Source: Chthoniobacteraceae bacterium
Lineage (GTDB): Bacteria; Verrucomicrobiota; Verrucomicrobiia; Chthoniobacterales; Chthoniobacteraceae
Assembly: GCA_947476045.1 (NCBI GenBank)
Contig: CANJNZ010000054.1
Location: 1-33,061 of the forward strand
Direction: 5' to 3'
DNA length: 33,061 bases
Shown: piece after piece, positions 4,206 through 30,633 of the stretch
How the letters are laid out: every line of letters begins with the position of its first letter
Position numbering within the stretch: position 1 is the first letter of the stretch
Notes under the pieces: generated by a model
Seen by the model: the letters and a program-made list of their open reading frames with translations, nothing else
Database searches by the model: none
Told to the model about the DNA's origin: nothing
Position numbers and translations under genes: made by a program

Positions 4206-5090
4206 ATGACCAATGCTCAGCCAACTAAACAGAATACTCCAGCCAGTGAAGTGTGGCTGAAATTCTGGGGCGTGCGAGGCAGTATCCCGACGCCGGGGGC
4301 GGGCACGGTGCGCTACGGCGGCAACACTTCGTGTGTCGAACTGAGTGCTGATGGCGAACATATCATTTTCGATGCGGGCAGCGGTCTGCGCACGCTCGGG
4401 CTTGCGCTGGCGGCAGAGGCAGTAGGGCAACCGCTTTCGCTCACGTTGCTTCTCACGCACACGCACTGGGATCACATTCAAGGCTTCCCGTTTTTCGTGC
4501 CCGCATACCAGCCGCAGAATCACATCCGCGTGCTCGGCTACGAAGGCGCACGACGCGAATTGCAGGACACGCTTGCGGGCCAGATGGAGAGCCCCTACTT
4601 CCCGGTCGCACTCGCGCAGATGCCGGGAAATATCGTCATCGAAGAATTGAAGGAAACGAGCTTTAGCGTTGGAAGACTCGCGGTTCGGGCCGTGCGCACA
4701 AAACATCCCGGAGTGACGATGGGTTACCGCATCGAGACGAGTTCGGGAAGCATCTGTTACATCCCAGACCACGAATCCACACCCGGAGAACGCAGCGGCG
4801 AAGTTGGCGAATTCATCAAGGGAGCCGACATCGTTTTGCTCGATGCGCAATACACCGCAGATGAATACGTGATGAAAAAAGGGTGGGGTCACGGCTGTCT
4901 TGACGACGTGGTCCGCATTGCACGGGAAGCAGGAGTGAAGCGACTGTTCCTGTTTCACCACGACCCTGCGCACGACGACACGTTTGTGGATGCGATGCTC
5001 GCCCATGCCCGCGAACTCGCCGGACCGATGCTTGTGGATGCCGCGAGGGAAGGGGAGCGCGTTATGCTCAGCCGTTCACCAGTCGGTTAA
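4206..5090 (+). CDS. MBL-fold metallo-hydrolase
   Basis: The protein has 294 residues. The metal-binding motif HTHWDH at 85-90 is the HxHxDH signature of the metallo-beta-lactamase superfamily. The N-terminal [12 protein letters not shown] and GGNTSC match the branch related to phosphodiesterases such as PhnP and cAMP-type enzymes. Later metal-ligand candidates are PDHE and the FHHDPAHDD segment. It probably hydrolyses a phosphodiester or similar bond in the cytoplasm, with substrate unknown. Start ATG 4206 has an AAAGGA-type ribosome binding site 9-10 bases upstream; an open frame extends upstream to 4065 but lacks family similarity. The 3' end overlaps the convergent larB by 23 bases. Confidence 0.85.
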
Positions 5091-5742
5091 TCTGCGCTGC
5101 TGCGAAGGCCGCGCCGAAACCGTTGTCAATGTTCACCACGGTCACGCCGCTGCCACATGAAGTAAGCATCCCCAGCAGCGCTGCGACGCCGCTGAAACTC
5201 GCACCATAGCCGATGCTTGTGGGCACGGCGATCACCGGCCTGCTCACCAACCCTGCGACTGCGCTGGGCAGCGCGCCTTCCATTCCAGCCACCACGATGA
5301 CCACATTCGCCGCTTCCAACCGGTCGCGCACCGCGAGTAATCGGTGCAGCCCGGCCACGCCCACGTCCGTGATGCGCTCCACTGTGTTTCCGAAAATTTC
5401 CAGCGTCACCGCAGCCTCATCCGCCACCGGCATGTCGCTGGTTCCTGCACACACCACGGCGATGGTGCCGCTGAGTTTCGGCAAGGCGACGCGTTCGACG
5501 GTGATGCAACGCGCCGTCTCGTGCCAGCGCGCCTCGGGAAACTCCGCCACCACCGCCCGCCATTGTTCACCGTTAGCGCGGCTCACGAGCAGCACATTTT
5601 CTTTTTCCAAAATCACCCGTGCGATCGCGACGACCTGCTCAGCGGTTTTGCCCATCCCGAAGATCACCTCGGGAAAGCCACACCTCCGCCGCCGGTCGGT
5701 ATCCACCCGTGCAAAGCCCAGATCCGTGTAACCGTCCGGCAT
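5068..5742 (-). CDS. larB: LarB, pyridinium-3,5-biscarboxylic acid mononucleotide synthase
   Basis: The 224-residue protein matches LarB, the PurE-related enzyme that carboxylates nicotinic acid adenine dinucleotide in the first step of the nickel-pincer nucleotide cofactor pathway. Visible hallmarks are [15 protein letters not shown], the Gly-rich [14 protein letters not shown] and [13 protein letters not shown], which form the PurE-like active site near the C-terminus, plus VIFGMGKT near the N-terminus. No larC or larE is in the window, so the partner enzymes must be elsewhere if the pathway is complete. It lies 3 bases downstream of the acetyltransferase gene on the same strand and is probably cotranscribed with it. 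The last 23 bases overlap the end of the MBL-fold gene. Confidence 0.88.
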
Positions 5743-5745
5743 TCG

Positions 5746-6237
5746 TTAAGCCTTTGGCAAAGTCGCCGAATCCTTCGCAAGCGGGAGGCGCAGCGGGATC
5801 ATTTGCGATTTAAAGAAGCCAAGTCGCGAGAAGAACTCGTGGCCTTCCTCGTTGATGCGATCGGTGAGCAGGGTGATGCGCAGAAACTCCTTCTGTTTTG
5901 CATACTCGATGGCGTGGCTGAGGAGTTGCGAACCCACGCCGCGCCCGCGGAATTCGTGATGCACGATCACATCTTCGAGCAGCACCACGAAGCCGCCCTC
6001 CGCCGTGCTGATGGTGAAAAGCAGATTCACCATGCCAATGATTTGTCCGTTCCAACGATAGACGAAAATACGCCCGCGGCTTGGTTGTTCGAGGATCAGT
6101 AAAAGTCCGCGCTCCTGTTTCACGCGGTCGGGCACGAAGTCGCCTTCGTGGCTGAAGAGGTCGTAGAGCAAATCCACCATCGCTGGCAGATCATCCATCG
6201 TCGCTTGCTCGATGACTGGTTTGTTCATCTCGGACAT
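5746..6237 (-). CDS. GNAT family N-acetyltransferase
   Basis: About 163 residues with a typical GNAT fold. Beta-4 (VVLLEDVIVHHEFRGRGVGS) includes the acetyl-CoA-binding R/Q-x-x-G-x-G/A motif as RGRGVGS. It is followed by helix LLSHAIEYAKQKEF and the beta-5 region RITLLTDR, then FFSRLGF. The acceptor substrate cannot be deduced. Start ATG 6237 (MSEMNKP) was preferred over ATG 6273, which adds an Arg/Ser-rich tail; ATG 6228 is also possible. No strong ribosome binding site separates them. It is directly upstream of larB (3-base gap) and 57 bases downstream of the restored end of the frameshifted gene at 6295, so the three could form one operon. Confidence 0.85.
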   Translation of the reverse strand: MSEMNKPVIEQATMDDLPAMVDLLYDLFSHEGDFVPDRVKQERGLLLILEQPSRGRIFVYRWNGQIIGMVNLLFTISTAEGGFVVLLEDVIVHHEFRGRGVGSQLLSHAIEYAKQKEFLRITLLTDRINEEGHEFFSRLGFFKSQMIPLRLPLAKDSATLPKA

Positions 6238-10742: not shown

Positions 10743-12449
10743 GTGGCCGCCAACGACGAATACATACTCGAAGTCCTCAAAGACACCCTGCTCATTCCAG
10801 ATGATCAGATTCAATTCGCCCGGGAGGAGGCGCAGAAGACCAAAAGCGGGAGCACTGTGGATGTTCTTGTGGAGCAAGGACTGGTGACACAGGAGGACGT
10901 TGCGCGCGCGGTGGCTTCCACTGCGGCCATGGACTTCATCATTCTAGACGATGTGCAGGTGCCGGTGGAGGTGACTTCGCTCATCAAGCCCGAGGTCGCA
11001 AGACGTTATCGTGTGGTGCCTATCGGCATGAGCGATGTCGGCGGCGTGGTGGTCGCGGTGGATAATCCGCTGAATTTTGATTCGCTCGACTCGGTGCAGA
11101 CGATCCTTCAGCGCGATGTGGAGTTTGTATGCACTACGCCGGCATCGATGAGCACAGCGTTGGTGAAATATTACGGCACAGTCGAGGATGCTGTGGCTAC
11201 GATGGAAAGCCTCGTGGGGGGAATTACCATCGGCGACACGTCCGTGACCGTTGAGGGTGCCGAGGGCGAAAAGGGCGACGCGCCGATTATCAAGCTCGTC
11301 ACCATGATGCTCATCGAGGCCTACAACATGAGGGCGTCGGACATTCACATCGAGCCGCTCGAAAAACGTCTGCGCATCCGTTTCCGTGTGGATGGCATTC
11401 TGCTCGAAATGCAAAATCCGCCGAAGAAGCTTCAGGCGGCCATCATTTCCCGTCTCAAGATCATGACGGGCACCATGTCCATCGCCGAAAAGCGGCTTCC
11501 GCAGGATGGACGTATCCAGGTGAAGCTCGGCAAGAAGCAGCTCGACCTGCGCGTTTCGACGATCCCGACCACACATGGCGAATCGATCGTTATGCGTATT
11601 CTGGACAAGACCTCGCTTTCACTTGGTCTGCCACAGCTTGGTTTCCTTAGCGACGATCAGGAAGTCTTCGAGCGGCTCATCACGCTGCCCGATGGCATTC
11701 TCCTCGTCACCGGGCCGACCGGATCGGGAAAAACGACCACGCTTTATGCGTGCCTCAATTATATCAACAAGCCCGACAAGAAACTCATCACCGTCGAAGA
11801 CCCGGTCGAGTATCAACTCAGCGGCATCAATCAGGTGCAGGTGAATGCAGATGTAGGAATGAGTTTCCCGGCTGCGCTGCGTTCGATGCTCCGTCAGGCT
11901 CCGAACGTGATCATGATTGGAGAAATTCGCGACGCGGAGACTGCGAATATCGCCATCAACGCTTCGCTGACCGGCCACCTTGTCTTTTCCACGCTCCACA
12001 CCAACGACGCTCCGAGCGCAGTCGCGCGTCTTGTGGATATCGGCGTGCAGCCGTTTCTCGTATCTTCCGCGGTGCGGGCGATGATGGCGCAGCGTCTTGT
12101 CCGGAAAATTTGTCAATCATGCAGGCATCCCTACGAAATGACGGAAGGCGAATTGCGCGCCCTCGGTATTGATCCATCGCAGACAGTGGATGCTTCGGTG
12201 ATGAGGGGAACGGGCTGCGAAAAATGCAAACAGCTCGGCTACAAAGGCCGCGCCGGCATCTTTGAGATTTTCTGTGTGGACGATGAAGTGCGCCACATGA
12301 TCAACCATCGCAGCACCACTGTGGAACTCCGCAAGCGCGCCCGTGAAATGGGCATGCGCACGCTTCGTGAGGACGGAATACGCAAAGTCCTTTCCGGCAT
12401 GACGACGGCGGATGAAGTCATCACTGCCACCATGTCTGACGCCGACTGA
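10743..12449 (+). CDS. GspE/PilB-type assembly ATPase, copy 1
   Basis: The 568-residue hexameric ATPase would power type IV pilus extension or type II secretion from the cytoplasmic face of the inner membrane. Residues 30-150 form the MshEN/T2SSE N-terminal module. The ATPase core follows, with Walker A GPTGSGKTT near 324, the Asp box ITVEDPVEYQ, Walker B IMIGEIRD near 390 and the His box TGHLVFSTLHTNDA. A tetracysteine zinc site (CQSC near 458, CEKC near 492) is typical of GspE/PilB and absent from PilT. Just before Walker B it reads RQAPN where relatives have RQDPD. Start is GTG 10743 with no evident ribosome binding site. pilT starts 10 bases downstream, so the two are almost surely cotranscribed. 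Confidence 0.9.
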   Translation: MAANDEYILEVLKDTLLIPDDQIQFAREEAQKTKSGSTVDVLVEQGLVTQEDVARAVASTAAMDFIILDDVQVPVEVTSLIKPEVARRYRVVPIGMSDVGGVVVAVDNPLNFDSLDSVQTILQRDVEFVCTTPASMSTALVKYYGTVEDAVATMESLVGGITIGDTSVTVEGAEGEKGDAPIIKLVTMMLIEAYNMRASDIHIEPLEKRLRIRFRVDGILLEMQNPPKKLQAAIISRLKIMTGTMSIAEKRLPQDGRIQVKLGKKQLDLRVSTIPTTHGESIVMRILDKTSLSLGLPQLGFLSDDQEVFERLITLPDGILLVTGPTGSGKTTTLYACLNYINKPDKKLITVEDPVEYQLSGINQVQVNADVGMSFPAALRSMLRQAPNVIMIGEIRDAETANIAINASLTGHLVFSTLHTNDAPSAVARLVDIGVQPFLVSSAVRAMMAQRLVRKICQSCRHPYEMTEGELRALGIDPSQTVDASVMRGTGCEKCKQLGYKGRAGIFEIFCVDDEVRHMINHRSTTVELRKRAREMGMRTLREDGIRKVLSGMTTADEVITATMSDAD

Positions 12450-12459
12450 TACAAACAAC

Positions 12460-13629
12460 ATGGCACTCTTCGGACATGTGAAAACCAGCACGCTTCCAGC
12501 GCCAGAACCGGCGCCGCGGATGGTGCCTCCCGTCGCCACTGGCGCGCGCGGCGCGTTTGCTCCGATAGACGATTTGTTGCGTATCACCATGGAGGTCGGA
12601 GCCTCGGATATTCATCTCTCGGTGGGAGCGCCGCCTACGCTCCGCATCCATGGGAAACTGGTTCGCATGGAGACACGTGCGCTCTTTGCCGAGGATATGG
12701 ATCATTTGGCGCGTGAGATCGCGAGTGCCGAGCAAGTCCACCGCCTCAACACCGAGGGAAGCGTGGACTTTGCGATGACGCACCAGGGCAAGAATCGCTT
12801 TCGTGTAAGCCTCTATCGCCAAAAGGCAACAACCGCGATGGCGATGAGGCTGTTGCCAAAGCAAATGCTGTCATTCCCGGAAATCGGGATGCCCTCCGTC
12901 GTCGAGCAACTTGTCCGAATGCCCCGCGGACTCGTTTTAGTAACGGGCCCGACTGGCTCGGGAAAAACGACAACGCTCGCGGCGATGCTGAATGCAATTA
13001 ATACGCAGATCGGAGCGCACATCGTCACCATAGAGGACCCCATCGAATACATTCACGAGCACCAGCTCGGCATGGTGCATCAACGCGAAATCGGGACGGA
13101 TGTCCCGGGCTTTGCCGAAGGATTGCGGCGCGCTTTGCGACAGGATCCCGATGTGATTTTCGTTGGTGAAATGCGTGACCTCGAAACCATGGAGACGGCC
13201 ATTCGTGCTGCTGAGACCGGGCATCTGGTCTTCTCAACACTGCATACGACAGGTGCCGGACGGACCGTCGATCGCATCGTGGATTCCTTTCCCGCGCATC
13301 AGCAGGATCAAATTCGCATCCAGCTTTCGACCAATCTCAAGGGCGTGATCTCGCAACTGCTGGTCCCTCGCATCGACAAACCGGGCCGCATAGCGGTCTT
13401 TGAAGTGATGACGAATACGCACGCAATCGGAGCATTGATCCGTGATAACAAGACGTTCCGCATTTCGACCGAAATCCAAACAGGCGCCAAACACGGTATG
13501 CTGACCATCGAGCAGTCGCTGGTGGACCTTTACCTGAGCGGCGTGATTTCCCGCGAAGAAGTCTTTGGCAAAGCTCAGGACCCCGAGCTTGCTGCGCAAC
13601 TACTCGCAGGCCGCGAACCCAACCGCTGA
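12460..13629 (+). CDS. pilT: PilT-type pilus retraction ATPase
   Basis: The protein has 389 residues and powers type IV pilus retraction (twitching motility, DNA uptake). PilT-specific features are the short N-terminus without an MshEN module, no tetracysteine zinc site, and the C-terminal block GRIAVFEVMTNTHAIGALIR with GMLTIEQSLVDL. Walker A GPTGSGKTT is near 162, the Asp box is TIEDPIEY, Walker B VIFVGEMRD is near 231 and the His box is TGHLVFSTLHTTGA, all intact. Start ATG 12460 follows the previous gene by 10 bases; an in-frame ATG at 12412 would overlap it. The next ATPase gene begins 9 bases downstream, so the three motor genes form a tight operon. Confidence 0.92.
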   Translation: MALFGHVKTSTLPAPEPAPRMVPPVATGARGAFAPIDDLLRITMEVGASDIHLSVGAPPTLRIHGKLVRMETRALFAEDMDHLAREIASAEQVHRLNTEGSVDFAMTHQGKNRFRVSLYRQKATTAMAMRLLPKQMLSFPEIGMPSVVEQLVRMPRGLVLVTGPTGSGKTTTLAAMLNAINTQIGAHIVTIEDPIEYIHEHQLGMVHQREIGTDVPGFAEGLRRALRQDPDVIFVGEMRDLETMETAIRAAETGHLVFSTLHTTGAGRTVDRIVDSFPAHQQDQIRIQLSTNLKGVISQLLVPRIDKPGRIAVFEVMTNTHAIGALIRDNKTFRISTEIQTGAKHGMLTIEQSLVDLYLSGVISREEVFGKAQDPELAAQLLAGREPNR

Positions 13630-13638
13630 CAATTTCCC

Positions 13639-15324
13639 ATGAATGTAAAACAAACCCTGAATCTTTTTGTGGATGCCGGTCTCGTGGACAGCGGCGTCGT
13701 GGATGATATTCTTCAAGAAGTCGCCAGCACCGGCAAAAGTCTCTGCGAAGTCCTTGTTGATTACCAGGTTTGCGACGAGGCAGGTTTTTATCGGGTCATA
13801 GCGGATGCCATTGGCGCGGAGTTTGTGGACTTGAGAAAATTCGATGCGCCTGCGGATATCGTGAAACTGCTGCCGGCAGGCCTTGCCCAGTTGCACCGCG
13901 CGTTCCCGCTCGGCTACGACGACCACATGCTGACGGTCGCCTTGTGCGATCCGTTGAATCAACAAACTCTCGAAGACCTTCGCTTTTCCCTAGGCAAAGA
14001 TATTCAAGCCGTGGTGGCACCCATCTACCAAATCGAGGATTTGATCAAAAAATACTACGGGTCGGACGCTGCATCTCTCGACAGCATCCTTGAGGAACTC
14101 GGCGGCGGCATTTCATTCGGCAAAGAAGGAGGCGAGATGGACATCAAGGAGCTCGAAAATGAGGCGAACGCCGCGCCCATCATTCGATATGTGGATCTCG
14201 TGCTTGCACAGGCCATTCAGGATCGCGCGAGTGACATTCACTTCGAGCCTTTCGAGACGGAGTTTAAAATTCGATATCGCGTGGATGGCTCGCTCTACGA
14301 AATGTCCCCGCCGCCCCGCCACCTCGCAAACCCAGTCATCTCGCGTGTGAAGGTGATGAGCAATTTGAACATCGCCGAGCGTCGCATCCCGCAGGACGGT
14401 CGCATTCAAAAGATCATCGGAGGAAGGCCTGTGGATTTGCGCGTGAGCACGCTGCCCACGCAGTTTGGAGAATCCGTCGTGCTTCGCGTGCTGGATCGCA
14501 GCACTGTGCAACTCGATCTCGAAGCGCTCGGGATGCCGGACGACATCTACAATTACCTCCTGCATACCATCGAGAAGCCCAACGGAATCTTCATCGTTAC
14601 CGGTCCCACAGGGTCGGGAAAAACGACGACGCTTTACGCCTGCCTCAACAAGATCAACACGGTGGATTCCAAAGTTCTCACCTGCGAAGACCCCGTCGAA
14701 TACGATATCGAGGGCATTGTTCAGGTGCCCATCAACGACAATATTGATCTGACTTTTGCTCGAGTTCTCCGCGCATTCCTGCGCCAGGATCCCGATCGCA
14801 TCATGGTGGGTGAAACGCGCGACAAAGAGACTGCGCAAATCGCCATTCAAGCTTCGCTGACGGGCCATCTGGTTTTCACGACACTTCACACGAATGATGC
14901 CCCGGGGGCAGTCACCCGGCTCATCGACATGGGCGTGGAACCTTTCCTACTGTCCGCTTCGCTCGAGGGTGTGCTTGGTCAGCGTCTCATCCGTAAAATC
15001 TGCACGCAGTGCAAAATGACTTACGAGCCAAGCGAGACAATCCTCGCGCAACTCGGGCTCACGCCCCAGGAAATCGGAGACAAGAATTTCTTTTTTGGAA
15101 GGGGATGCGACTACTGCAACAACACCGGATATCGCGCACGCAAGGGCATCTATGAATTGCTGAATATCACGGATCCGTTGCGGGAGTTGATCAATCAGCG
15201 CGCCCCTTCGGTGGTGATGAAGCAAAAGGCGATAGAACTCGGAATGGTTACTCTCCGCGACGACGGCCTGCGCACCATCTACGAAGGCCTGACGACCATC
15301 GAGGAAGTGCTGAAATACACGTAG
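13639..15324 (+). CDS. GspE/PilB-type assembly ATPase, copy 2
   Basis: The 561-residue second member of the GspE/PilB family has an N-terminal MshEN-like module (residues 15-135). Its ATPase core carries Walker A GPTGSGKTT near 322, Asp box TCEDPVEYD, and His box TGHLVFTTLHTNDA. Walker B reads IMVGETRDKET, with Thr where the other copies have Ile. The zinc tetracysteine is CTQC near 455 and CDYC near 491. The start is ATG 13639, 9 bases after pilT. Sequence identity to copies 1 and 3 is clearly only partial, so these are old paralogues, perhaps serving different pilus or secretion machines. A possible terminator hairpin follows. Confidence 0.9.
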   Translation: MNVKQTLNLFVDAGLVDSGVVDDILQEVASTGKSLCEVLVDYQVCDEAGFYRVIADAIGAEFVDLRKFDAPADIVKLLPAGLAQLHRAFPLGYDDHMLTVALCDPLNQQTLEDLRFSLGKDIQAVVAPIYQIEDLIKKYYGSDAASLDSILEELGGGISFGKEGGEMDIKELENEANAAPIIRYVDLVLAQAIQDRASDIHFEPFETEFKIRYRVDGSLYEMSPPPRHLANPVISRVKVMSNLNIAERRIPQDGRIQKIIGGRPVDLRVSTLPTQFGESVVLRVLDRSTVQLDLEALGMPDDIYNYLLHTIEKPNGIFIVTGPTGSGKTTTLYACLNKINTVDSKVLTCEDPVEYDIEGIVQVPINDNIDLTFARVLRAFLRQDPDRIMVGETRDKETAQIAIQASLTGHLVFTTLHTNDAPGAVTRLIDMGVEPFLLSASLEGVLGQRLIRKICTQCKMTYEPSETILAQLGLTPQEIGDKNFFFGRGCDYCNNTGYRARKGIYELLNITDPLRELINQRAPSVVMKQKAIELGMVTLRDDGLRTIYEGLTTIEEVLKYT

Positions 15325-18493: not shown

Positions 18494-20206
18494 ATGAGCA
18501 TTAAATCTTTTGGCGAACGAATTGCAGATGTCCTCATTGAGGACGGTCTGCTTCTGTCGAGTCAGCTTGAGGAGGCTATCGCCGTGCAGAAAAAGCAGGG
18601 TGGTCGCCTGCTGAAAATCCTCACGGATAATAGCTACGTAACCGAGCAGGACATGGTAATTTCCATGGGACGTTGCCTCGATACCCCTCCGGTGAATCTC
18701 AGCAAAATCCGTGTTCCCGAGCATATCCTGGAACTTGTGCCGAAGGAAATGGCGCGTGCCTACAAGCTCGCCCCGGTGTGCAAACTGGGCAACAAGCTCT
18801 TTGTGGCGATGGCCGATCCGCTGAACGTGCTCGCTTTGGACGATCTCCGCCAGCGGACGAAGATGGAGATCATACCGATGATCACCACTGAGCGCGCTGT
18901 GACAGAGGCGCTATCGGGGGTCGGGCAGGCCACAGCAACGATGGATGCCGTGCTGCGCGACGCCGTAGAGGCTGCTGCGCAGACGGCTGAAGTGGTGACC
19001 GTCAAAAAGGAGGATATCGACCTCGATAAGATGGCATCCGACAGCGCGGATGCGCCGGTCGTAAAAATCGTCAATCTGATCCTCGTCCAAGCGATCAAGG
19101 AAAAGGCGAGCGATATTCACATAGAGCCCTTCGAGAAGGAGATCAAATTGCGCTATCGCGTTGACGGGGCGCTCATCGACGCGAGTTCACCGCCAAAGTC
19201 ACTCCAGCTTCCCATTGCATCGCGCATCAAAATTCTCGCGGGTCTCGATATTGCCGAACGCCGTCTTCCGCAGGATGGACGTTTCCGCATTCGTGTCTCT
19301 GGCAAAGAAGTGGATTTGCGTATCAGCATCCTGCCAACGGTATATGGCGAGAAGATCGTTATTCGTTTGCTCGATAAAGGGGCGCTTAGCGGGAGCATCG
19401 ATAAAATGGGGCTCGATGAATATACGCTCGGTATTTTCAGGAGCGCCATTGATGCGCCACACGGAATGATCCTCGTCACGGGCCCGACTGGTTCCGGTAA
19501 GACGACCACGCTCTACACGCTTCTCAGCGAACTGAATAACCCGAAGTATAACATCGTCACCGTTGAGGACCCGGTGGAATACCAGTTGACTGGCATCAAT
19601 CAGGTCGCAGTGAAGGCCGACGTTGGCCTCGGCTTTGGCGAGGCACTGCGTTCAATTCTGCGTCAAGATCCGGACATCGTGATGATCGGTGAAATTCGTG
19701 ATAATGAAACGGCTGACATTGCTGTGAAGGCCGCGCTTACAGGTCACCAGGTGCTTTCCACACTCCACACGAATGACGCTGCAGGTGCCATCGCCCGTCT
19801 CGACGATATGGGCATCGAACCGTTCCTCATCAGCTCCTCGGTAATCCTCACTTGCGCCCAACGTCTCGTGCGCCGCCTGTGCCCGAATTGTCGCGAGGAG
19901 TTTACCCCCGAGCCGGAAATCCTTGCCAAATTGAACATCGAAGACGACGGGACAGTCTTCTATCGCGGGGCAGGGTGCTCGCGATGCAAAGGACGCGGTT
20001 ACCTTGGTCGTGCCGCCATTCTCGAAGTGCTGCCGGTGAGCGAGGCCGTGCGACGTCTGATCATCAAACGCGCCAGCGCCTCGGTGATTAAAAATCAAGC
20101 CGTCAGCGAAGGGATGAAAACTTTGCGCATGGTCGGCATAGACAAGGCGCGTGAAGGAGTCACCTCACTAGAGGAAGTGCTCGGGGTCACTTCCGAGGAT
20201 CACTAA
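18494..20206 (+). CDS. GspE/PilB-type assembly ATPase, copy 3
   Basis: The 570-residue protein has an MshEN-like N-terminal module (residues 1-150). The ATPase core shows Walker A GPTGSGKTT near 329, Asp box TVEDPVEYQ, Walker B IVMIGEIRDNET preceded by the usual RQDPD, and His box TGHQVLSTLHTNDA. The zinc tetracysteine is CPNC near 462 and CSRC near 495. All catalytic motifs are canonical, making this the most conventional PilB/GspE of the three. The start is ATG 18494. It follows the TPR-MshEN gene by 8 bases and precedes the small unknown gene and GTPase, all on the same strand. Confidence 0.92.
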   Translation: MSIKSFGERIADVLIEDGLLLSSQLEEAIAVQKKQGGRLLKILTDNSYVTEQDMVISMGRCLDTPPVNLSKIRVPEHILELVPKEMARAYKLAPVCKLGNKLFVAMADPLNVLALDDLRQRTKMEIIPMITTERAVTEALSGVGQATATMDAVLRDAVEAAAQTAEVVTVKKEDIDLDKMASDSADAPVVKIVNLILVQAIKEKASDIHIEPFEKEIKLRYRVDGALIDASSPPKSLQLPIASRIKILAGLDIAERRLPQDGRFRIRVSGKEVDLRISILPTVYGEKIVIRLLDKGALSGSIDKMGLDEYTLGIFRSAIDAPHGMILVTGPTGSGKTTTLYTLLSELNNPKYNIVTVEDPVEYQLTGINQVAVKADVGLGFGEALRSILRQDPDIVMIGEIRDNETADIAVKAALTGHQVLSTLHTNDAAGAIARLDDMGIEPFLISSSVILTCAQRLVRRLCPNCREEFTPEPEILAKLNIEDDGTVFYRGAGCSRCKGRGYLGRAAILEVLPVSEAVRRLIIKRASASVIKNQAVSEGMKTLRMVGIDKAREGVTSLEEVLGVTSEDH

Positions 20207-23392: not shown

Positions 23393-23470
23393 CGGATGAG
23401 GAATATCGAATGACGCATGAATGTCGAATGACGAATGACGAATAGGCATGATTCGTCATTCGACATTCGC
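23393..23470. repeat. Intergenic GAATGACGAATG / CATTCGTCATTCG repeat with inverted symmetry
   Basis: Short units such as gaatgacg and cgaatgacgaatgacgaat are repeated head to tail and then appear in the opposite orientation (attcgtcattcgacattcg), so the two halves could pair. Translated, the element gives the FVIRHS or MTNDE-like peptides that recur at gene edges in planctomycete and verrucomicrobial genomes. It fills the divergent gap between the AsmA-like and ABC transporter genes. Confidence 0.65.
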
Positions 23471-25375
23471 CGTTTTTCCGCACAGAACGACCTCGTCATC
23501 AACCCGTCCACTGCTGTGCTCGCACTCAAAGACATCACACTCTCCATCGGCAAAGCTCCCGACGAGCAATTGCTCCTCAATCAAGTTTCCGTCCTTGTCC
23601 CGCGTGGACACTTCGCCGCGATCATCGGGCCGTCGGGCTGCGGAAAGAGCACGCTACTCAAAGTCATCGCCGGAATTCGCGAACACACGGATGGTAGTGT
23701 TCATTGGGAAGGGCGCGACCTTTCCGTAGAGGGCGACATGGCGCCTCACGAGATTGGCTACGTGCCGCAATTCAGTATCGCGCATGAATTGCTGAATGTG
23801 GACGAGTGCATCGAAAGCGCACTGCGTTTGCGGGTAGACGGACTGAGCGTGCAGCAACTCGATGAGCGTATTGAAAAAGTTTTAAAAAGCGTCGGTCTTG
23901 ATGAAATACCCGACCGCCGCGTGGCGCTGCTTTCCGGCGGACAAAAGCGCCGTCTTGCAATGGCGATAGAGATGGCGAGTTCGCCGCATCTGCTGCTGTG
24001 CGACGAGGTGACGAGCGGGCTCGACCCGAAGAGCGAGGATGAGATCGTGAGGCTCATGCACGACCTTTCGCGCAAGGATGATCGCATCGTGCTCAGCGTC
24101 ACGCACAGCCTCCAGCACGTCGCGCTCTACGACAGCGTTATCGTGCTCTATCAGGGTCAACTGGCCTATCACGGTTCGTCCGAGTTGCTCGTTCATTACT
24201 TTGGCATCAAGCGCCCCGAGGATCTGTATCCGCGCCTCGCGCAGCGCCGCGCGAAGGACTGGCACGACTCGTGGCTGAAATACCGCTCTGCATACTACGA
24301 GCAAAGCAAGCTGCCCGACATCACTGCTGAAATCAAAAAGCCGGAGAAGGAAAAAAAGAGCGATCCGGTGAGCGATTCAGACGTTTCGCCGGAAGTAAGC
24401 GAACAGGAGGAAGTCGAGCGTCTCCGCGCCATCGTGGAGGGGCGAAAACCGAAGGACGAGAAACCTGCTGAGAAAAAGAAACCCGACGAGGTCGCACTGG
24501 AAACGCATCCGCCAACGCCCGGCGTGTTCGCGCAATTCGCCGTGCTGCTCGCGCGGCGATGGAAACTTTTCTTCCGCGACAAGAGTCAGTTGATTCTCCA
24601 ACTCGCGCTACTCTTCGGCTTCCCGTGTCTCGTTGTGATTTTCGCGCTCGATGGCCTGCCCGATGTAAAACGCCTCGGCGATAGCGGCGTGGGCACACTC
24701 TTTGAGCGGATGAAACAGGAGTCCGAAGTCTTTAAGAGCATCTCAAAAACCGGCGGCCTCGTCTCGGGGCTGATCATGTTCCAAGTGATCCTCCTCGCGC
24801 TCATGGGCTCGAACAACGCCGCACGCGAAATCGCCGGAGAGCGTTCGCTGTTTGAAAAGGAAAAATTCGCCGGCCTCAGTCCGCTTGCCTACGTGGGGAG
24901 CAAGGTCGTCTTCCTCGGCGCGCTCGTCTTGGCGCAGAGCATTTGGATGACGCTCTTCGTGAATCTCGTCGTCGGCTTCGAGGGCAGCTTCCTCATGCAG
25001 GCGCTCAGCCTCATCCTCGTGAACGGAGCGATGACCGCAGTCTGCCTCGCCATTTCCTCGTGGACGAAATCCGCCGAGCAATCCTCGTTGCTCTCCATTT
25101 ACCTCGTCGGTTTCCAGCTTCCGCTCAGCGGTGCAGTGCTCGCGCTGCCCAAGGCCATTGCGCTGCTCACGCAAGTTTTCATCGCGAGCTATTGGGGGTG
25201 GAGCGGCTTCATCCGCTCGATGGAAAGCACGCGCTATTACGACTCGATGACCAACACTGGCGTGCTGCCCACCGACCCTGCAGGCGGTCTGCTCTGCGTG
25301 TGGGTGCTGCTCGCGCACATCGTCCTCGGGCTCTTCCTTGCCTACACGGGGAGTAAAAATTCGCGCTGGGAGTAA
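23435..25375 (+). CDS. ABCG-type ABC transporter (ATPase fused to ABC-2 permease)
   Basis: The 646-residue half transporter has an N-terminal ATPase with intact Walker A GPSGCGKSTLL (near 66), signature LSGGQKRRLAMA, Walker B LLLCDEVTSGLD and H-loop SVTHSL. A charged Lys/Glu linker (about 290-355) follows. The C-terminal ABC-2 membrane domain has about six helices, including LILQLALLFGFPCLVVIFAL, an NNAAREIAGERSLFEKE coupling segment and LSIYLVGFQLPLSGAVLALP. ATPase-first order is that of ABCG/White exporters. The annotated ATG 23435 lies inside the intergenic repeat; GTG 23516, just before LALKDITLSIG, is a plausible true start. The membrane-protein gene follows after 6 bases. Confidence 0.88.
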   Translation: MTNRHDSSFDIRRFSAQNDLVINPSTAVLALKDITLSIGKAPDEQLLLNQVSVLVPRGHFAAIIGPSGCGKSTLLKVIAGIREHTDGSVHWEGRDLSVEGDMAPHEIGYVPQFSIAHELLNVDECIESALRLRVDGLSVQQLDERIEKVLKSVGLDEIPDRRVALLSGGQKRRLAMAIEMASSPHLLLCDEVTSGLDPKSEDEIVRLMHDLSRKDDRIVLSVTHSLQHVALYDSVIVLYQGQLAYHGSSELLVHYFGIKRPEDLYPRLAQRRAKDWHDSWLKYRSAYYEQSKLPDITAEIKKPEKEKKSDPVSDSDVSPEVSEQEEVERLRAIVEGRKPKDEKPAEKKKPDEVALETHPPTPGVFAQFAVLLARRWKLFFRDKSQLILQLALLFGFPCLVVIFALDGLPDVKRLGDSGVGTLFERMKQESEVFKSISKTGGLVSGLIMFQVILLALMGSNNAAREIAGERSLFEKEKFAGLSPLAYVGSKVVFLGALVLAQSIWMTLFVNLVVGFEGSFLMQALSLILVNGAMTAVCLAISSWTKSAEQSSLLSIYLVGFQLPLSGAVLALPKAIALLTQVFIASYWGWSGFIRSMESTRYYDSMTNTGVLPTDPAGGLLCVWVLLAHIVLGLFLAYTGSKNSRWE

Positions 25376-25381
25376 ACGGCA

Positions 25382-26554
25382 ATGACAGGCGTGAACACAC
25401 TCGCACTCGCGCTCGCAATCGCAGGCTACGTGCTGCTCATGCTCACGAACCCCGTGCGCGCCAGCCTGCGCGACGGCTGGCGCAGTGTGCGGAGGTATCC
25501 CGTGTTGTGGCGGCGGCTCGCGTGGCTCGGCTGCGCAAATGCACTCTTCCTCCTCGCGGTGAATCTCTCCTTTCAATGGCGCGGAGTTCCCATGCTTACG
25601 TGGGGGCGCAGTTCGTGGCATGATCCCTCGCTCTGGCTGAGCGGCTCGCCGGATTCGCTATGGTGGCTTCCGCCCTCGGCGATTCGCGAGGGCCTCTGGC
25701 AAAGCTGGCTGCCAGCGCTCGAATCTGTCGCCGGGCTTTTCAACAACGCCGTCACCACATTCCCCGTCGCGCTCACCGCCGTCGTCGCTCTGTTCTTCAA
25801 CCGCCACCGCTATTGCACACTGCTCCGCTCCGCGCTGGTGCGGCGCTTCGGAGCGATGGGCTGGCTCATGCTTGCGGGCGTCTTCATTGGTGCGCTTGCC
25901 GTGCTCGCAAAGGCTGTGCTGTATTTTCATCCACCCGGAATCTCCGACTCCATGACCGTGCATTTAGCCGCGCTTGTGATGTGCCCTTCTTCGCTCTTCG
26001 AGTATTTATTCGGCCTCGGCGTGCAGGTCTTCCTCATCCTCCACGCCTACGCTTGGGTGCGCGGCATCACCTTCGAGCCGGATGCGCTCCGCGAATTCGC
26101 ACTGCGGAGACTTGGTGCGAGTGTGAAATGGGCGGTCATCGTCGTGCTTGCGGGGACTCTGCTCGTCGAACTACCGCAAGTGCTCGCGCTCGGCTGGGGC
26201 GTCGCGCTTCCGCCGAAACTACTCACCATCACGCGCGCGTCACTCGCAGTCGTGCTCGTCATTTTCTCCACCATGCAGGCATCGCTCGCGCTCCACGGAG
26301 AAACTCTCCGCCGCGCGTGGCGCGCCCACTGGCAGCTCGTGCGACGGCACACTTGGGAACTGGCGTGGTTCCTCATCCTCGCGGCGGTCCACCTCTACGC
26401 GCTCGCAGTTTTGCGCACGCTCGTGCTCAGCGGGGTGGGGGAGAATACCGCCCTCGGCGTCGTGTGGACGCTCGCCTGGCCGCTCCCCGCCGGACTCATC
26501 GCCGGCTGGATGCTCGCCTCATGGGTCTGCCTCTTCAAACGCTGCGAGTCGTAG
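25382..26554 (+). CDS. Multi-pass membrane protein coupled to the ABCG-type transporter
   Basis: The 390-residue protein has about six to eight hydrophobic segments, including LALALAIAGYVLLMLT, LAWLGCANALFLLAVNLSF, LMLAGVFIGALAVLAKAVL and VVWTLAWPLPAGLIAGWMLA. Basic loops (WRSVRRYP, LRRAWRAHWQLVRRH) lie between them. I do not recognise the family and see no catalytic motif. Start ATG 25382 is 6 bases after the ABC transporter stop, so a shared transcript and a role as accessory membrane partner or substrate-handling subunit are inferred from position only. The nested palindrome at 26618 lies just downstream. Confidence 0.75.
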   Translation: MTGVNTLALALAIAGYVLLMLTNPVRASLRDGWRSVRRYPVLWRRLAWLGCANALFLLAVNLSFQWRGVPMLTWGRSSWHDPSLWLSGSPDSLWWLPPSAIREGLWQSWLPALESVAGLFNNAVTTFPVALTAVVALFFNRHRYCTLLRSALVRRFGAMGWLMLAGVFIGALAVLAKAVLYFHPPGISDSMTVHLAALVMCPSSLFEYLFGLGVQVFLILHAYAWVRGITFEPDALREFALRRLGASVKWAVIVVLAGTLLVELPQVLALGWGVALPPKLLTITRASLAVVLVIFSTMQASLALHGETLRRAWRAHWQLVRRHTWELAWFLILAAVHLYALAVLRTLVLSGVGENTALGVVWTLAWPLPAGLIAGWMLASWVCLFKRCES

Positions 26555-26703: not shown

Positions 26704-27351
26704 TTACTGCGGCGGGTTGTAGGTGCCGTCGGGGAAGGTGATGTCGGTGTTCGGCAGGGCGGCGCGCAGTTCGCGCAGCGCGGCGGCGAGGATATTGTCG
26801 CAGGCGACGAGGACGAGCCTTTGCAGGGCAGTGAGTTCCTTGAGGGTATCCACGTTTTGCAACGCGGGGCAGGCGCCGAGGTAGAGGTCTTGCAGGCCGG
26901 TGAGGCCCTTGAGGGCGTCCACGTTTTGCAGCGCGGGGCAGAAGATGAGGTCGAGCCCTTTTAGTGAGGTGAGGCCCTTGAGGGCGTCAAGGTTTTCGTC
27001 GTTACATCCCCGAGCATGCAATTTTGTGGGATTGAGCTGGTGGAGCATTTCGCGGTAGCGGCCAAGGTCGGGGACTTCTCCCAACACAAGCCAGCGCTCG
27101 TGCTCGCCCCATGTCTCCTTTTTGAGCGCATTGTGCCAGTCCTGCCGGATGAGGCTGAGGGTGTCTTCGCACTCCCACGTGAACCCCGCCTCCTCCGCTT
27201 CGCGGACGGCGTTGTTGTAGGTGTTGAGCTTCCACAACTGCCAGCCGATGCCGCTGAGGAAGACGACGATGAGCACGCACCAAAGCTTCTTCCCAAAGCT
27301 GCTCTCGCTTTTCGTGGCGTGCCCGTCTTTCACCCCCGCCTTCTGCCGCAC
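26704..27351 (-). CDS. Membrane-anchored leucine-rich-repeat protein
   Basis: The 215-residue protein has a single N-terminal hydrophobic helix (LWCVLIVVFLSGIGWQLWKL), a linker, and then three to four leucine-rich units of about 24 residues (LDALKGLTSLKGLDLIFCPA, VDALKGLTGLQDLYLGACPA, VDTLKELTALQRLVLVACDN). The Cys-Pro-Ala turn and NVD start repeat between units. Such repeats normally mediate protein binding; the partner is unknown. The start is GTG 27351; GTG 27333 is also possible. It is divergent from the degraded ABC ATPase gene with 106 bases between, and convergent with the membrane-protein gene across the nested palindrome. Confidence 0.75.
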   Translation of the reverse strand: MRQKAGVKDGHATKSESSFGKKLWCVLIVVFLSGIGWQLWKLNTYNNAVREAEEAGFTWECEDTLSLIRQDWHNALKKETWGEHERWLVLGEVPDLGRYREMLHQLNPTKLHARGCNDENLDALKGLTSLKGLDLIFCPALQNVDALKGLTGLQDLYLGACPALQNVDTLKELTALQRLVLVACDNILAAALRELRAALPNTDITFPDGTYNPPQ

Positions 27352-27457: not shown

Positions 27458-28138
27458 GTGAAAAGTGAACCGCTCATCGAACTCCGCAGCGTCTCGTGCG
27501 CTCGCACCGAGGCGGGCGTGCGTGCGCGTATCGCGGAGGTGTCGCTGGCTATCGAGGCGGGCACGGTGACGCTGCTGGTGGGCGAGACGGGGTGCGGGAA
27601 GAATTTACTCCTGCGTCTGCTGGGCCTGCTGGAGGTGCCGGACAGCGGTGAGGTGATTTTCGCCGGGCAGCCGACGGCGCAGCTCACGGACGATGCGCGT
27701 GTGGAACTGCGCACCCACACGTGCGGCTATCTGTTCTCGTCGCCGTTCCTGCTGGCGCAGTTCAGCGCGCTGGAGAACATCGCGATGCCGGTTTTCAAAA
27801 TCTCGCGGCTGAGCCCGGAGGAGGTGCGCGCGCGGACGGAGGAGTTGATGGCGTTTGCGGGGCTGACGGAGTTTGCCGAGTCGAAGGATCTGCCGCCTTT
27901 TCTCCAAAAGCGCGTGGCGCTCGCGCGCGGGCTGGCCAACGATCCGGAGGTGCTCTTTGTAGAGAATCTGGACGAGATGATCGCGGGCGACGCGAGTTTC
28001 CGCGAACTGCTGCACGCCGCAACCGAAAGATTTGGAGTGGCCGTGGTCGCGGCGGCGCTCCCTGCCTGCGCGGCGCGGATTGGCGAGCGCAGAATCGAAG
28101 TCGCCGGAGGTCGCGTGGCTTGCGATGTGACGCCGTGA
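27458..28138 (+). CDS. Degenerate ABC-type ATPase domain protein
   Basis: The 226-residue protein has the overall LolD/MlaF-like ABC ATPase pattern (IELRSVSCARTEAGV, LLRLLGLLEVPDSGEVIFAG, YLFSSPFLLAQFSALENI). The catalytic motifs are lost. Walker A reads GETGCGKN (42-49) with Asn for Ser/Thr. The LSGGQ signature is replaced by LPPFLQKRVALAR. Walker B reads VLFVEN (165-170) where LLLLDE is expected, and the H-loop His is Ala in AVVAAALPA. ATP hydrolysis is therefore unlikely. The start is GTG 27458. The stop overlaps the hpnD-like start by 4 bases (GTGA), so the two are translationally coupled. No partner permease is next to it. Confidence 0.75.
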   Translation: MKSEPLIELRSVSCARTEAGVRARIAEVSLAIEAGTVTLLVGETGCGKNLLLRLLGLLEVPDSGEVIFAGQPTAQLTDDARVELRTHTCGYLFSSPFLLAQFSALENIAMPVFKISRLSPEEVRARTEELMAFAGLTEFAESKDLPPFLQKRVALARGLANDPEVLFVENLDEMIAGDASFRELLHAATERFGVAVVAAALPACAARIGERRIEVAGGRVACDVTP

Positions 28139-28956
28139 CCGAAGCCGAGCAAATTACCCGCGCGAGCCGCTCGAATCTCGCGCTCGCATTCATCGCGCTG
28201 CCGCGCGAGAGGCGCAGCGACATCACGACGTTCTACGCGTTCTGCCGGATCGTGGATGACATCGCGGACGAACCGGGAGAGCGGCAGGCAAAGGCGGATG
28301 CGCTCGCACGCTGGCGCGATGCGGTGTCGTCGCGCGTGGATGGCGAGCACGCGCTCGCGGCGGACATTCGCGTCCTCATCGGAAAATATGGCATCCCGGT
28401 CGCGCATTTTCACGAGATCATCGCGGGCGTGGAGATGGATCTGGATGGAGCGAGCTATGCGACGTGGGAGGAGTTGCGGCTTTACTGTCACCGCGTGGCG
28501 AGCGTGGTCGGGCTTGTGAGCATCGAGATTTTTGGCGCACGCGATCCGGCGGCGAAGGAATACGCGCTGCAACTCGGCCTTGCTTTGCAACTCACGAACA
28601 TTATCCGCGATGTCGGGCAGGATTTCGCCAACGAGGGGCGCGTCTATCTGCCTGCGGAGGACATGGCGCGCTTTGGAGTCACGGGCGAGGACATCGCGGC
28701 GAAAAGGCACAGCGATGCGTTTCTTGCGCTGATGGATTTCGAGGCGGAGCGCGCTGCGGGCTTTTACCGCGCGGCGGTGGCTGCATTTCCACGAGGCGAC
28801 AGGCGCGCGCTCGTCGCGGCGGAAATCATGCGCGCGGTCTATGGGCGTCTGCTTTCAAAAATGCGCGCCGACCGCTGGCGGGTTTTCGACCGCCGCTACT
28901 CGCTCGGAAAGTTGACGAAGCTATGGCTCGTCCTACGCGGCGTGCTGGGCGTGTGA
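28135..28956 (+). CDS. hpnD: Squalene/phytoene synthase family protein, HpnD-like
   Basis: The 273-residue prenyl-condensing enzyme would join two farnesyl diphosphates to presqualene diphosphate on the route to squalene and hopanoids. The first Asp-rich motif is FCRIVDDIADE and the second is RDVGQDFANEGRVYLP. Between them EIIAGVEMDLDGASYATWEE and YCHRVASVVGLVSIEIFG closely follow HpnD. The related CrtB and HpnC are the alternatives. No other hopanoid genes are in the window. GTG 28135 overlaps the ATPase stop by 4 bases; an open frame extends back to 27721 but runs antiphase through the ATPase gene. The convergent neighbour ends 4 bases away. Confidence 0.85.
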   Translation: MTEAEQITRASRSNLALAFIALPRERRSDITTFYAFCRIVDDIADEPGERQAKADALARWRDAVSSRVDGEHALAADIRVLIGKYGIPVAHFHEIIAGVEMDLDGASYATWEELRLYCHRVASVVGLVSIEIFGARDPAAKEYALQLGLALQLTNIIRDVGQDFANEGRVYLPAEDMARFGVTGEDIAAKRHSDAFLALMDFEAERAAGFYRAAVAAFPRGDRRALVAAEIMRAVYGRLLSKMRADRWRVFDRRYSLGKLTKLWLVLRGVLGV

Positions 28957-28959
28957 CGT

Positions 28960-30633
28960 TTACTTTTTGCGGAAGTTTTCCAGCGAGACGGCGGGGATGA
29001 GCACGCCTTTGAGTTCGCGCCGCCACCACGTCACGGGGTTTTCTTCGGCGCGGGTGAAGTGGTAGTCGTAGTAGAGCAGGCGCACGAAGCGTGGCGGTTC
29101 GCTCGGAAATGGATTCTTTTCGAGCAGGGCAAGGACGGTGGGTTCGCCTTCGAGCACGCGGCGCAGAAGGGCTTCGAGCCAGTAGGCGTTGCTCGGTGGG
29201 TGGAGCGCGGCGAACCACATCTGCCAGTCGAGCCGCGGCTGGTGCGGCGCGACGAGCGAGGGGCTGCGGTAGAGGCTGCCTGCCTTGTAGGGGAATTCGT
29301 ATTCGCGCCAGACGCGGCCGTCGTCGCTGCCTTCGAGGATGATCTCCGGGCGCGCGGTGGTCATCGTGCGGAAGAGTCCGTAGCCATTGAAGGTGCGCAG
29401 GAATTTCCACCACTCAGTCTGTGGGGATTTGCCGGTGCGGTCGTATTCTGCGCGCAACGCGTCCATTTCACGCTGCTGGGCGGCGGCACCGCCGAAGGCA
29501 TCGAGCATTCCGCCGAAACTCAGCGCGACGGATGCCGCTGCCATTGCGCAGGCCGGGATGAGTGGCCAGCGCGGTGAGGGTTTGCTTTCCGCAATGCGCG
29601 CCAGGCGCCGCAGGAAACGCGTGGTGTCGTCGAGGAAGGGGACGCAGAGCGCGATGGTGATCCAGTTGAAGTAGGTGTAGTTGCCCGTCGCGATGATGGC
29701 GAGTTGCAATGCGATTTGCGCTAGCGCTGCGCTGCGACGGAGCGTGCGCCAGCGCGGCGGCGCGAAGAGCAGAATGGGCGTGGCGATTTCGACCCAATAC
29801 ATCACCCAGCACATCCCGCGGTGGAGCCACGCGGGCCACTGGTGCGCGAACCACGATGTCCACAGCGGGAGCGGCTGTGTTTCAAAATGGAAATCGAGTG
29901 CGGAGTAGTTGAGCCACGTCGTGTCGTTCCATGTGAGCTTCACGATGCCGGACTCGATCATGAGGCGGAAAAAGAGCCACCACAGCAGCCAGCGTCCGAT
30001 TTTTTGCGCGGATGTCTCGCGTCCCCATTGCGGGCGCAGCGACCACGGGAGCCATGCGGCGGCGAGTGGTGCCGTTTCGAGCAGGAGCGCGTCCCATTGA
30101 AAATTGGAGAATGGGCCGCCGACGGTCATCAGCGAAAGATAGAGCGCCCAGCAGACGAGCGCGCATACGCCGGGGCAGAAGCCGGCAGCGAGTGTGATGG
30201 CGAAGAGCGCGCCGAGCCAGCATTGGGCGAGCAACCACGTGTCGCTGTGGCCGAGCCAGCAAAGTGTGGGATGCTCGATGGCGCGGAACGTGTCTGCTTT
30301 TTGCGCCGCGATGAGTTGCCCTCCCACGGGCAGCAGTCCGTGTTCGCCGACCAGCCCGCGCACTTGCGAACCCCAACTCCAAAACGCCACGAGAAAAATC
30401 GCACCGAACGCGATGGCGAAAACGCGGCGCGCTGCGGTGAAGGTATTTTTCTCCACCGGCAGCAGGACTTTTCCTTTCCGTGTGGCGAATTCGACGCCGC
30501 CCCAAAGCAGTGCAAACACCGTCCACAGTGCGATGCAGCGCGCGAGCGGGTCGGAGAAAATTCTCTCCAGCGCCGCCCACAGTGGGAGCGTCGTGGCGAA
30601 GACGGCGAGTTGGAGGAGGCGCGAATTCGTCAT
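28960..30633 (-). CDS. Lipase maturation factor family membrane protein
   Basis: The 557-residue multi-pass membrane protein is homologous to eukaryotic LMF1, which helps lipases fold in the ER; the bacterial role is unknown. Recognisable blocks are GEHGLLPVGGQL, FSNFQWDALLLETAPLAA, WLFFRLMIESGIVKLTWND, YWVEIATPILLFAPP, and the C-terminal soluble part NGYGLFRTMTTARPEIILEG followed by WREYEFPYKAGSLYRSPSLV and HQPRLDWQMWFAAL. About eight to ten helices are apparent. The start is ATG 30633, 9 bases after the EVE gene stop on the same strand, so the two are probably cotranscribed. Confidence 0.88.
   Translation of the reverse strand: MTNSRLLQLAVFATTLPLWAALERIFSDPLARCIALWTVFALLWGGVEFATRKGKVLLPVEKNTFTAARRVFAIAFGAIFLVAFWSWGSQVRGLVGEHGLLPVGGQLIAAQKADTFRAIEHPTLCWLGHSDTWLLAQCWLGALFAITLAAGFCPGVCALVCWALYLSLMTVGGPFSNFQWDALLLETAPLAAAWLPWSLRPQWGRETSAQKIGRWLLWWLFFRLMIESGIVKLTWNDTTWLNYSALDFHFETQPLPLWTSWFAHQWPAWLHRGMCWVMYWVEIATPILLFAPPRWRTLRRSAALAQIALQLAIIATGNYTYFNWITIALCVPFLDDTTRFLRRLARIAESKPSPRWPLIPACAMAAASVALSFGGMLDAFGGAAAQQREMDALRAEYDRTGKSPQTEWWKFLRTFNGYGLFRTMTTARPEIILEGSDDGRVWREYEFPYKAGSLYRSPSLVAPHQPRLDWQMWFAALHPPSNAYWLEALLRRVLEGEPTVLALLEKNPFPSEPPRFVRLLYYDYHFTRAEENPVTWWRRELKGVLIPAVSLENFRKK

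Follow-up and report, generated by a model that had tools for sequence, protein, structure and literature searches.

In the 33,061-nucleotide contig CANJNZ010000054.1 of a Chthoniobacteraceae bacterium (hereafter the window), the gene for an HpnD-type presqualene diphosphate/squalene synthase, hpnD, is preceded and overlapped by a gene encoding a protein with a LolD-like ATP-binding cassette (ABC) ATPase fold without catalytic motifs, which we term pseudo-LolD. Its core losses recur in every member of a clade of orthologues in which the frame is kept open by purifying selection and the linkage to hpnD is almost constant. We tentatively regard pseudo-LolD as a catalysis-dead ABC ATPase that is still functional and that would serve HpnD at the membrane as a subunit for docking or regulation, without hydrolysing ATP; based on the sequence comparisons set out below, we put the probability of this reading at roughly 0.45. 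The window's own genome is G000 (4.37 Mb, 96.8% complete; the window is G000:C54), and other genomes are numbered in the same way.

A LolD-like ATPase overlapping hpnD

Pseudo-LolD (226 amino acids) is encoded at 27458..28138 on the forward strand, with a GTG start at 27458 and a stop codon at 28136-28138. The hpnD gene follows at 28135..28956 on the same strand, from a GTG start at 28135 to a stop codon at 28954-28956, so that the stop of the first gene and the start of the second share the four bases GTGA (28135..28138, forward strand). An earlier note on this DNA had described an open frame overlapping the synthase start by GTGA, and its coordinates proved exact.

Pseudo-LolD matches the ABC ATPase family PF00005 with an E-value of 1.2e-15. 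Its best NCBIfam match is to LolD (NF008639, E 1.4e-31), where it scores 109.7 bits and the cut-off is 360, and it similarly falls short of the second LolD model, TIGR02211, with 95.5 bits against a cut-off of 307.75. The closest sequences in the PDB are likewise those of LolD (7v8l and 7mdy, E about 5e-48). Judged by this similarity, pseudo-LolD descends from LolD-type ATPases; it is not itself a LolD, since defining features of that family were looked for and are lacking. The downstream protein, by contrast with these sub-threshold scores, passes the cut-off of the HpnD equivalog model (TIGR03465, 294.5 bits against 278.6), matches PF00494 with an E-value of 7.2e-71 and retains both Asp-rich motifs (DDIAD and RDVGQD). 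Both motifs are also intact in all 61 hpnD genes linked to pseudo-LolD.

Loss of the catalytic motifs

Alignment with LolD-type proteins shows that every major catalytic element of pseudo-LolD is altered. The remnant Walker A motif, GETGCGKN (residues 42-49; 27581..27604, forward strand), keeps its Lys and has lost the Ser/Thr, the Q-loop reads YLFS with loss of the Gln, and LPPFL, VLFVENL and AAAL stand at the positions of the signature, Walker B and H-loop, respectively. This bears out the earlier reading of the motifs (GKN, no LSGGQ, VEN for LDE and no H-loop His). Among 64 orthologues, LSGG[QE], the Walker B DE and the H-loop His are each found in none and the Q-loop Gln in a single case (G056), which sets the family apart from LolD. 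Other elements have been lost less evenly: the Walker A Lys is present in 45 of the 64, a Glu occupies the catalytic Glu position in eight, LSxG is retained in G002, G007 and G009, and a full GK[ST] Walker A survives in three members of family f9 (G031, G054 and G056). In an alignment of 62 of the sequences the catalytic positions (Gln94, the signature, Asp169-Glu170 and His201) are scrambled, and the position of Thr50 is a Leu in 51.

The controls comprised 35 rows: 15 LolD-type proteins from named genomes, seq­uences of seven ABC paralogues from the same genome and 13 further matches from both inside and outside the order. They represent 34 distinct proteins, G000:C21 being the same gene as control L002. 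GK[ST], the Q-loop Gln, DE and the H-loop His are present in 35/35 rows and LSGG[QE] in 32/35, the other three (LSAGQ, ISGGM and MSGGQ) being one- or two-letter variants.

The least degraded pseudo-LolD is that of G056 (locus L224, gene at 5090-5758), in which the full Walker A and the Q-loop Gln are kept and the signature, Walker B DE and H-loop His are lost. It is a possible intermediate from which the order of motif losses might be read.

Enzymes of the HpnD type use diphosphate substrates, and the altered P-loop (GCGKN in the window) might be imagined to belong to a remodelled ligand-binding domain that binds or senses the diphosphate of farnesyl diphosphate or presqualene diphosphate. The retention of the Walker A Lys in 45 of the 64 orthologues and the frequency of GxxGxGK-like loops are in keeping with such a sensor. 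The Lys has, however, been lost from the other 19, including the hpnD-linked proteins of G011, G020 and G022, and we consider this explanation very unlikely.

A clade of orthologues under purifying selection

At least 64 pseudo-LolD orthologues were found in seven families (f1, f5, f6, f7, f9, f10 and f12) of the window's order, 62 of them from a profile search of 213 genomes of the order together with fetched regions and two from a later search. The figure is a minimum and no census: it derives from the best matches listed among the 213 genomes, two region surveys took in pseudo-LolD matches no weaker than 1e-8 and 1e-15, and very diverged members (that of G028, for example) can score below a real LolD. 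Protein identity to the window's pseudo-LolD falls to 33% among the first 19 orthologues. In an unrooted maximum-likelihood tree, the 62 aligned pseudo-LolDs are split from 22 controls with 100/100 support; within the clade, f5 is nested in a group that it forms with f1, and the grouping of f6 is weak. Since the losses of the signature, the Walker B DE and the H-loop His are common to all 64 orthologues and these form a single clade, they look ancestral, with Walker A and the Q-loop apparently lost unevenly. The earlier note had proposed a search for orthologues with the same losses next to hpnD, and they were found there; the contrary case that it had named, close relatives with intact motifs indicating ongoing decay, was not encountered among the 64.

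Outside the order, six of the best class-wide matches (G343, G370, G321, G322, G393 and G346) were read as candidate members and are intact. Beyond the class, a search for the close-relative pattern, from which 80 loci were kept, gave a close match only in L057, a contig of the same genus.

Selection on the frame, whose measurement the earlier note had also suggested, was estimated from Nei-Gojobori counts with our own script. Between G000 and its nearest relative, G001, the ratio of nonsynonymous to synonymous substitution rates (dN/dS) for pseudo-LolD is 0.099 (dS 0.25; 38 synonymous and 12 nonsynonymous changes), compared with 0.126 for hpnD and 0.218 for c1, a membrane protein gene upstream that is described below. 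The frame has thus been retained by selection. Across the 20 pairs in which dN of pseudo-LolD is less than 0.1, dN/dS is no higher than 0.20 in 18; the exceptions, with 23 changes each, are G063-G066 (0.228; 14 synonymous, nine nonsynonymous) and G097-G104 (0.417; 10 synonymous, 13 nonsynonymous). The ratio is lower for pseudo-LolD than for hpnD in 15 of 19 comparable close pairs, which share branches and so are not independent. Pseudo-LolD is constrained about as strongly as HpnD.

These data bear directly on the idea that the gene is decaying, a pseudogene in the making. The altered catalytic motifs are what would bring decay to mind, but the core losses are shared by 64/64 orthologues across seven families in one clade, dN/dS to the nearest relative is 0.10, and each of the 62 aligned orthologues reads as a single open frame. 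Decay in progress is therefore rejected.

Linkage to hpnD

The hpnD gene lies directly downstream of pseudo-LolD, on the same strand, in 63 of the 64 cases, the exception being G016. The widest gaps between pseudo-LolD and the hpnD profile match are 141 bases (G074) and 235 bases (G083). An exact NTGA overlap, with the start in the frame of hpnD, is seen in 58/64 (56 of the first 62 and both of the later ones). Fixed translational coupling of this kind would usually accompany proteins that are needed together. In several regions (G015, G073 and G076, for example) the pair is part of a longer gene order, lepA - signal peptidase I - class II aldolase - c1 - pseudo-LolD - hpnD - glycine-zipper lipoprotein, in which lepA and the signal peptidase, aldolase and lipoprotein genes were named by reading their sequences rather than by family search.

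Could the frame be a translational leader, serving the coupled translation of hpnD and not its own protein product? The frequency of the NTGA overlap is what speaks for this. Against it are purifying selection similar to that on hpnD, a confidently predicted fold (see below) and the situation in G016, where the c1–pseudo-LolD pair is kept and the linkage to hpnD is lost. As the gene persists there beside c1 and away from hpnD, its role is not only that of feeding ribosomes to hpnD, and a leader function alone is scarcely plausible.

Evolutionary distances are correlated between pseudo-LolD and HpnD (r 0.76), pseudo-LolD and c1 (r 0.84) and c1 and HpnD (r 0.94), all three values being confounded by the species tree.

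A conserved coupling-helix groove

The side helix, Q-loop and helical-subdomain stretch of pseudo-LolD (residues 78-111; 27689..27790, forward strand) corresponds to the coupling-helix groove. Whilst Gln94 is lost here, Arg85 is present in 61 of the 62 aligned sequences and an aromatic residue at position 93 (Phe93) in all 62; Leu98, Glu106, Asn107 and Ala109 are each found in 62/62 and Pro111 in 61/62. Positions conserved in at least 80% of sequences make up 11 of the 34 in this stretch and 20 of the 192 elsewhere (Fisher p 0.002, a post hoc value, the stretch having been picked after conservation was viewed). In Escherichia coli LolD, R85 and Y93 are reported to contact the coupling helix of LolC, and S78 and Y93 that of LolE, with Y93A impairing viability (PMC11671585).

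An AlphaFold2 (AF2) model of pseudo-LolD has a mean predicted local distance difference test score (pLDDT) of 91 and a predicted template modelling (TM) score of 0.89, and its top match in Foldseek is LolD (9gvk_D, TM 0.83); because the underlying alignment is rich in true LolDs, the model indicates compatibility with the fold and is not proof of it. The simplest reading of these patterns would be that selection acts on the docking surface and not on the ATP chemistry. The scaffold or regulatory use suggested earlier would fit what is conserved.

On the docking reading, pseudo-LolD would no longer hydrolyse ATP and would be a rigid subunit with a docking or regulatory task. Coupled translation would yield it along with HpnD; pseudo-LolD would then bind the synthase and seat it against a cytoplasmic helix of a membrane protein, for which c1 is the best candidate where it is present, and the very hydrophobic product of HpnD would thereby be made at the membrane. 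A more specific version, in which this ABC ATPase family gave up hydrolysis early in the order and its groove came to hold the coupled synthase against an order-specific membrane protein, is possible though doubtful.

Pseudo-LolD might instead be a soluble regulator or folding partner that binds the synthase and either stabilises it or controls it allosterically, with no membrane partner involved. In favour of this, hpnD is the only near-constant neighbour (63/64), c1 is missing from 31 of 61 regions with pseudo-LolD and hpnD, and PhnK and PhnL provide a precedent for ABC proteins seated on the core of an enzyme (PMC9947105). This model leaves the near-invariant coupling-helix contacts, Arg85 and the aromatic residue at position 93, unexplained, however, and G016 has c1 with pseudo-LolD and no hpnD linkage; by analogy with the Phn proteins it is conceivable, and on balance we think it rather unlikely.

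The retained groove would also suit a heterodimeric ABC transporter of which pseudo-LolD was the degenerate half, pairing with an active nucleotide-binding domain (NBD), either a real LolD or an ABC-2 neighbour, on a permease that exports the HpnD product. Many ABC exporters have degenerate nucleotide sites (PMC7756269), a few pseudo-LolDs retain a full Walker A, and an intact ATPase-permease is encoded two conserved genes upstream in the window and directly before hpnD in G013, G019 and G023. With the signature and the Walker B DE missing in 64/64, however, both sites of the heterodimer would be impaired. Moreover, the ABC-2 neighbour is seen in just five pseudo-LolD regions (the window, G001, G014, G048 and G050), and no lolC/lolE- or MacB-type permease was recognised beside pseudo-LolD in the window, the neighbours in relatives having been typed in part. 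We regard a transporter of this sort as distinctly unlikely.

Several observations weigh against a docking role for pseudo-LolD. Ordinary LolDs conserve the same groove residues, which points to selective retention and not to a new use, and conservation does not extend to S78, the third of the LolD contacts. Of 38 relatives, the window's own genome among them, 37 have an HpnD match. In 21 of these the degraded ATPase lies directly upstream of hpnD, in G016 it lies elsewhere, and none was found beside hpnD in the remaining 15. The latter include G003, G004 and G005, which belong to the same genus as the window, and as the gene is missing beside hpnD in such closely related genomes, it is dispensable in some lineages. 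Searches for remnants upstream of hpnD in G003, G004, G005 and G018 gave weak, short matches only; the stronger tblastn matches in G013, G019 and G023 are to the neighbouring ABC-2 fusion. The unevenness of the degradation described above means, in addition, that weak nucleotide binding may persist in part of the family. Finally, c1 accompanies pseudo-LolD and hpnD in only 30 of 61 regions (in G032 as a fragment), it is found with hpnD in the absence of pseudo-LolD at three of 19 hpnD-type loci lacking the latter, and an AF2 model of c1 built from two sequences was of no use (pLDDT 39). The 19 loci include the second SQS_PSY copies L174, L175 and L176 and the hpnD locus of G016, and the presence of c1 was counted within fetched regions.

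Neighbouring genes

The c1 gene (25382..26554, forward strand) encodes an orphan multi-transmembrane protein. Pfam and NCBIfam gave sub-threshold matches only (GPDPase_memb, 0.052; DUF7847, 0.16), and a sequence search of the PDB gave no relative. In a class-wide sample of 236 genomes, to which the search for c1 was confined, 13 have the gene, all in the window's order. The idea that c1 is an obligate partner was rejected, given the 31 regions without it and the three loci with c1 and hpnD alone; it is the best candidate for a membrane partner.

Upstream of c1 in the window, at 23435..25375 on the forward strand, family matches identify a fusion of an intact ABC ATPase with an ABC-2 permease. 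As regards a neighbouring permease, both this fusion and the orphan membrane protein c1 are encoded upstream of pseudo-LolD on the same strand. In G013, G019 and G023 (L157, L158 and L159; one genus) c1 and pseudo-LolD are missing at this place and the fusion stands directly before hpnD instead, with overlapping open frames.

Between c1 and pseudo-LolD, on the reverse strand at 26704..27351, lies a leucine-rich repeat (LRR) gene that is outside the conserved module. It is missing from that place in G001, where the spacer between c1 and pseudo-LolD is 53 bases, and its family is multi-copy in the window's own genome: at thresholds of 60% identity and 140 residues there are ten further matches, one of which has an internal stop. 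Its absence at this place in G001 and its many copies suggest that the LRR gene may mark a recent insertion that split the operon.

Elsewhere in the window, a homologue of lipase maturation factor with LMF1 and LMF1_C domains is encoded convergently to hpnD (28960-30633, reverse strand). Four T2SSE-type secretion/pilus ATPases are encoded within 9.5 kb on the forward strand (10743-12449, 12412-13629, 13639-15324 and 18494-20206), three of them carrying MshEN domains, and an 1105-amino acid protein kinase fused to a C-terminal FGE-sulfatase domain is encoded at 359-3676, also on the forward strand.

The product of HpnD

The product of this HpnD-type enzyme may be presqualene diphosphate, squalene or a precursor of C30 carotenoids. 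HpnD is the sole SQS_PSY match in the window's own genome, and as there is this one match only, no separate HpnC was seen in that genome, at 96.8% completeness. HpnE was not detected above the cut-off in any of the 38 relatives, nor was it in 14 control genomes, so that the sensitivity of this search is undemonstrated. The genome's only squalene-cyclase-like protein is a weak match of 616 amino acids (G000:C109:4677-6368; PF13243, E 1.8e-26). Similar weak squalene-cyclase-like matches were seen in several relatives.

A strong match to squalene-hopene cyclase (E <1e-70) is present in 11 of 22 relatives with pseudo-LolD and in seven of 16 without it. A hopanoid-specific role for pseudo-LolD is not supported by these counts. 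The link to hopanoid synthesis suggested in the earlier note is likewise unsupported, given the single SQS_PSY match, the lack of an HpnE above the cut-off and a cyclase-like protein that is weak. It has been predicted that most neutrophilic Verrucomicrobia stop at squalene, with exceptions that have the cyclase including Chthoniobacter flavus and Terrimicrobium (PMC9543262).

Comparison with known systems

LolD, the ATPase of the type VII ABC system LolCDE, is the closest family in both sequence and fold, and the Arg85 and aromatic 93 contacts are common to the two proteins. Unlike LolD, pseudo-LolD is linked to hpnD and has no recognised lolC/lolE-type neighbour in the window. A functional analogy, and no more, can be drawn with YbbAP-TesA of E. 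coli, in which a LolD-like NBD of a type VII ABC system is encoded beside a lipid-processing enzyme, a lipid hydrolase (PMC12646458). YbbAP is ATP-powered and TesA periplasmic in that system, whereas pseudo-LolD is without catalytic motifs and HpnD would be expected in the cytoplasm. PhnK and PhnL, docked on carbon-phosphorus lyase, are a second analogy and not a case of family membership: they need ATP binding and hydrolysis (PMC9947105), and pseudo-LolD does not have the residues for hydrolysis. In heterodimeric ABC exporters the loss of catalytic residues is conserved and a structural role for the degenerate sites has been proposed, but one of the two composite sites is active (PMC7756269); pseudo-LolD is a separate NBD subunit that has lost the signature, Walker B DE and H-loop His. 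E. coli DppBCDF was considered as a precedent for a dead NBD and set aside, its NBDs having functional motifs. No report of the hpnD–pseudo-LolD pair was found in the open-licence literature.

Degenerate ABC sites are usually discussed as the one silent half of a working transporter. In the present case a whole clade has a separate NBD subunit without the signature, Walker B DE and H-loop His, with its docking surface and its tight linkage to a terpenoid enzyme kept. If pseudo-LolD is an adaptor, it would offer a clean case in which to ask what an ABC domain can do once ATP hydrolysis is removed, and by what means squalene-type synthases are positioned at bacterial membranes. On the more specific version given above, the synthase, pseudo-LolD and the order-specific membrane protein would make up a lipid-synthesis complex built from transporter parts.
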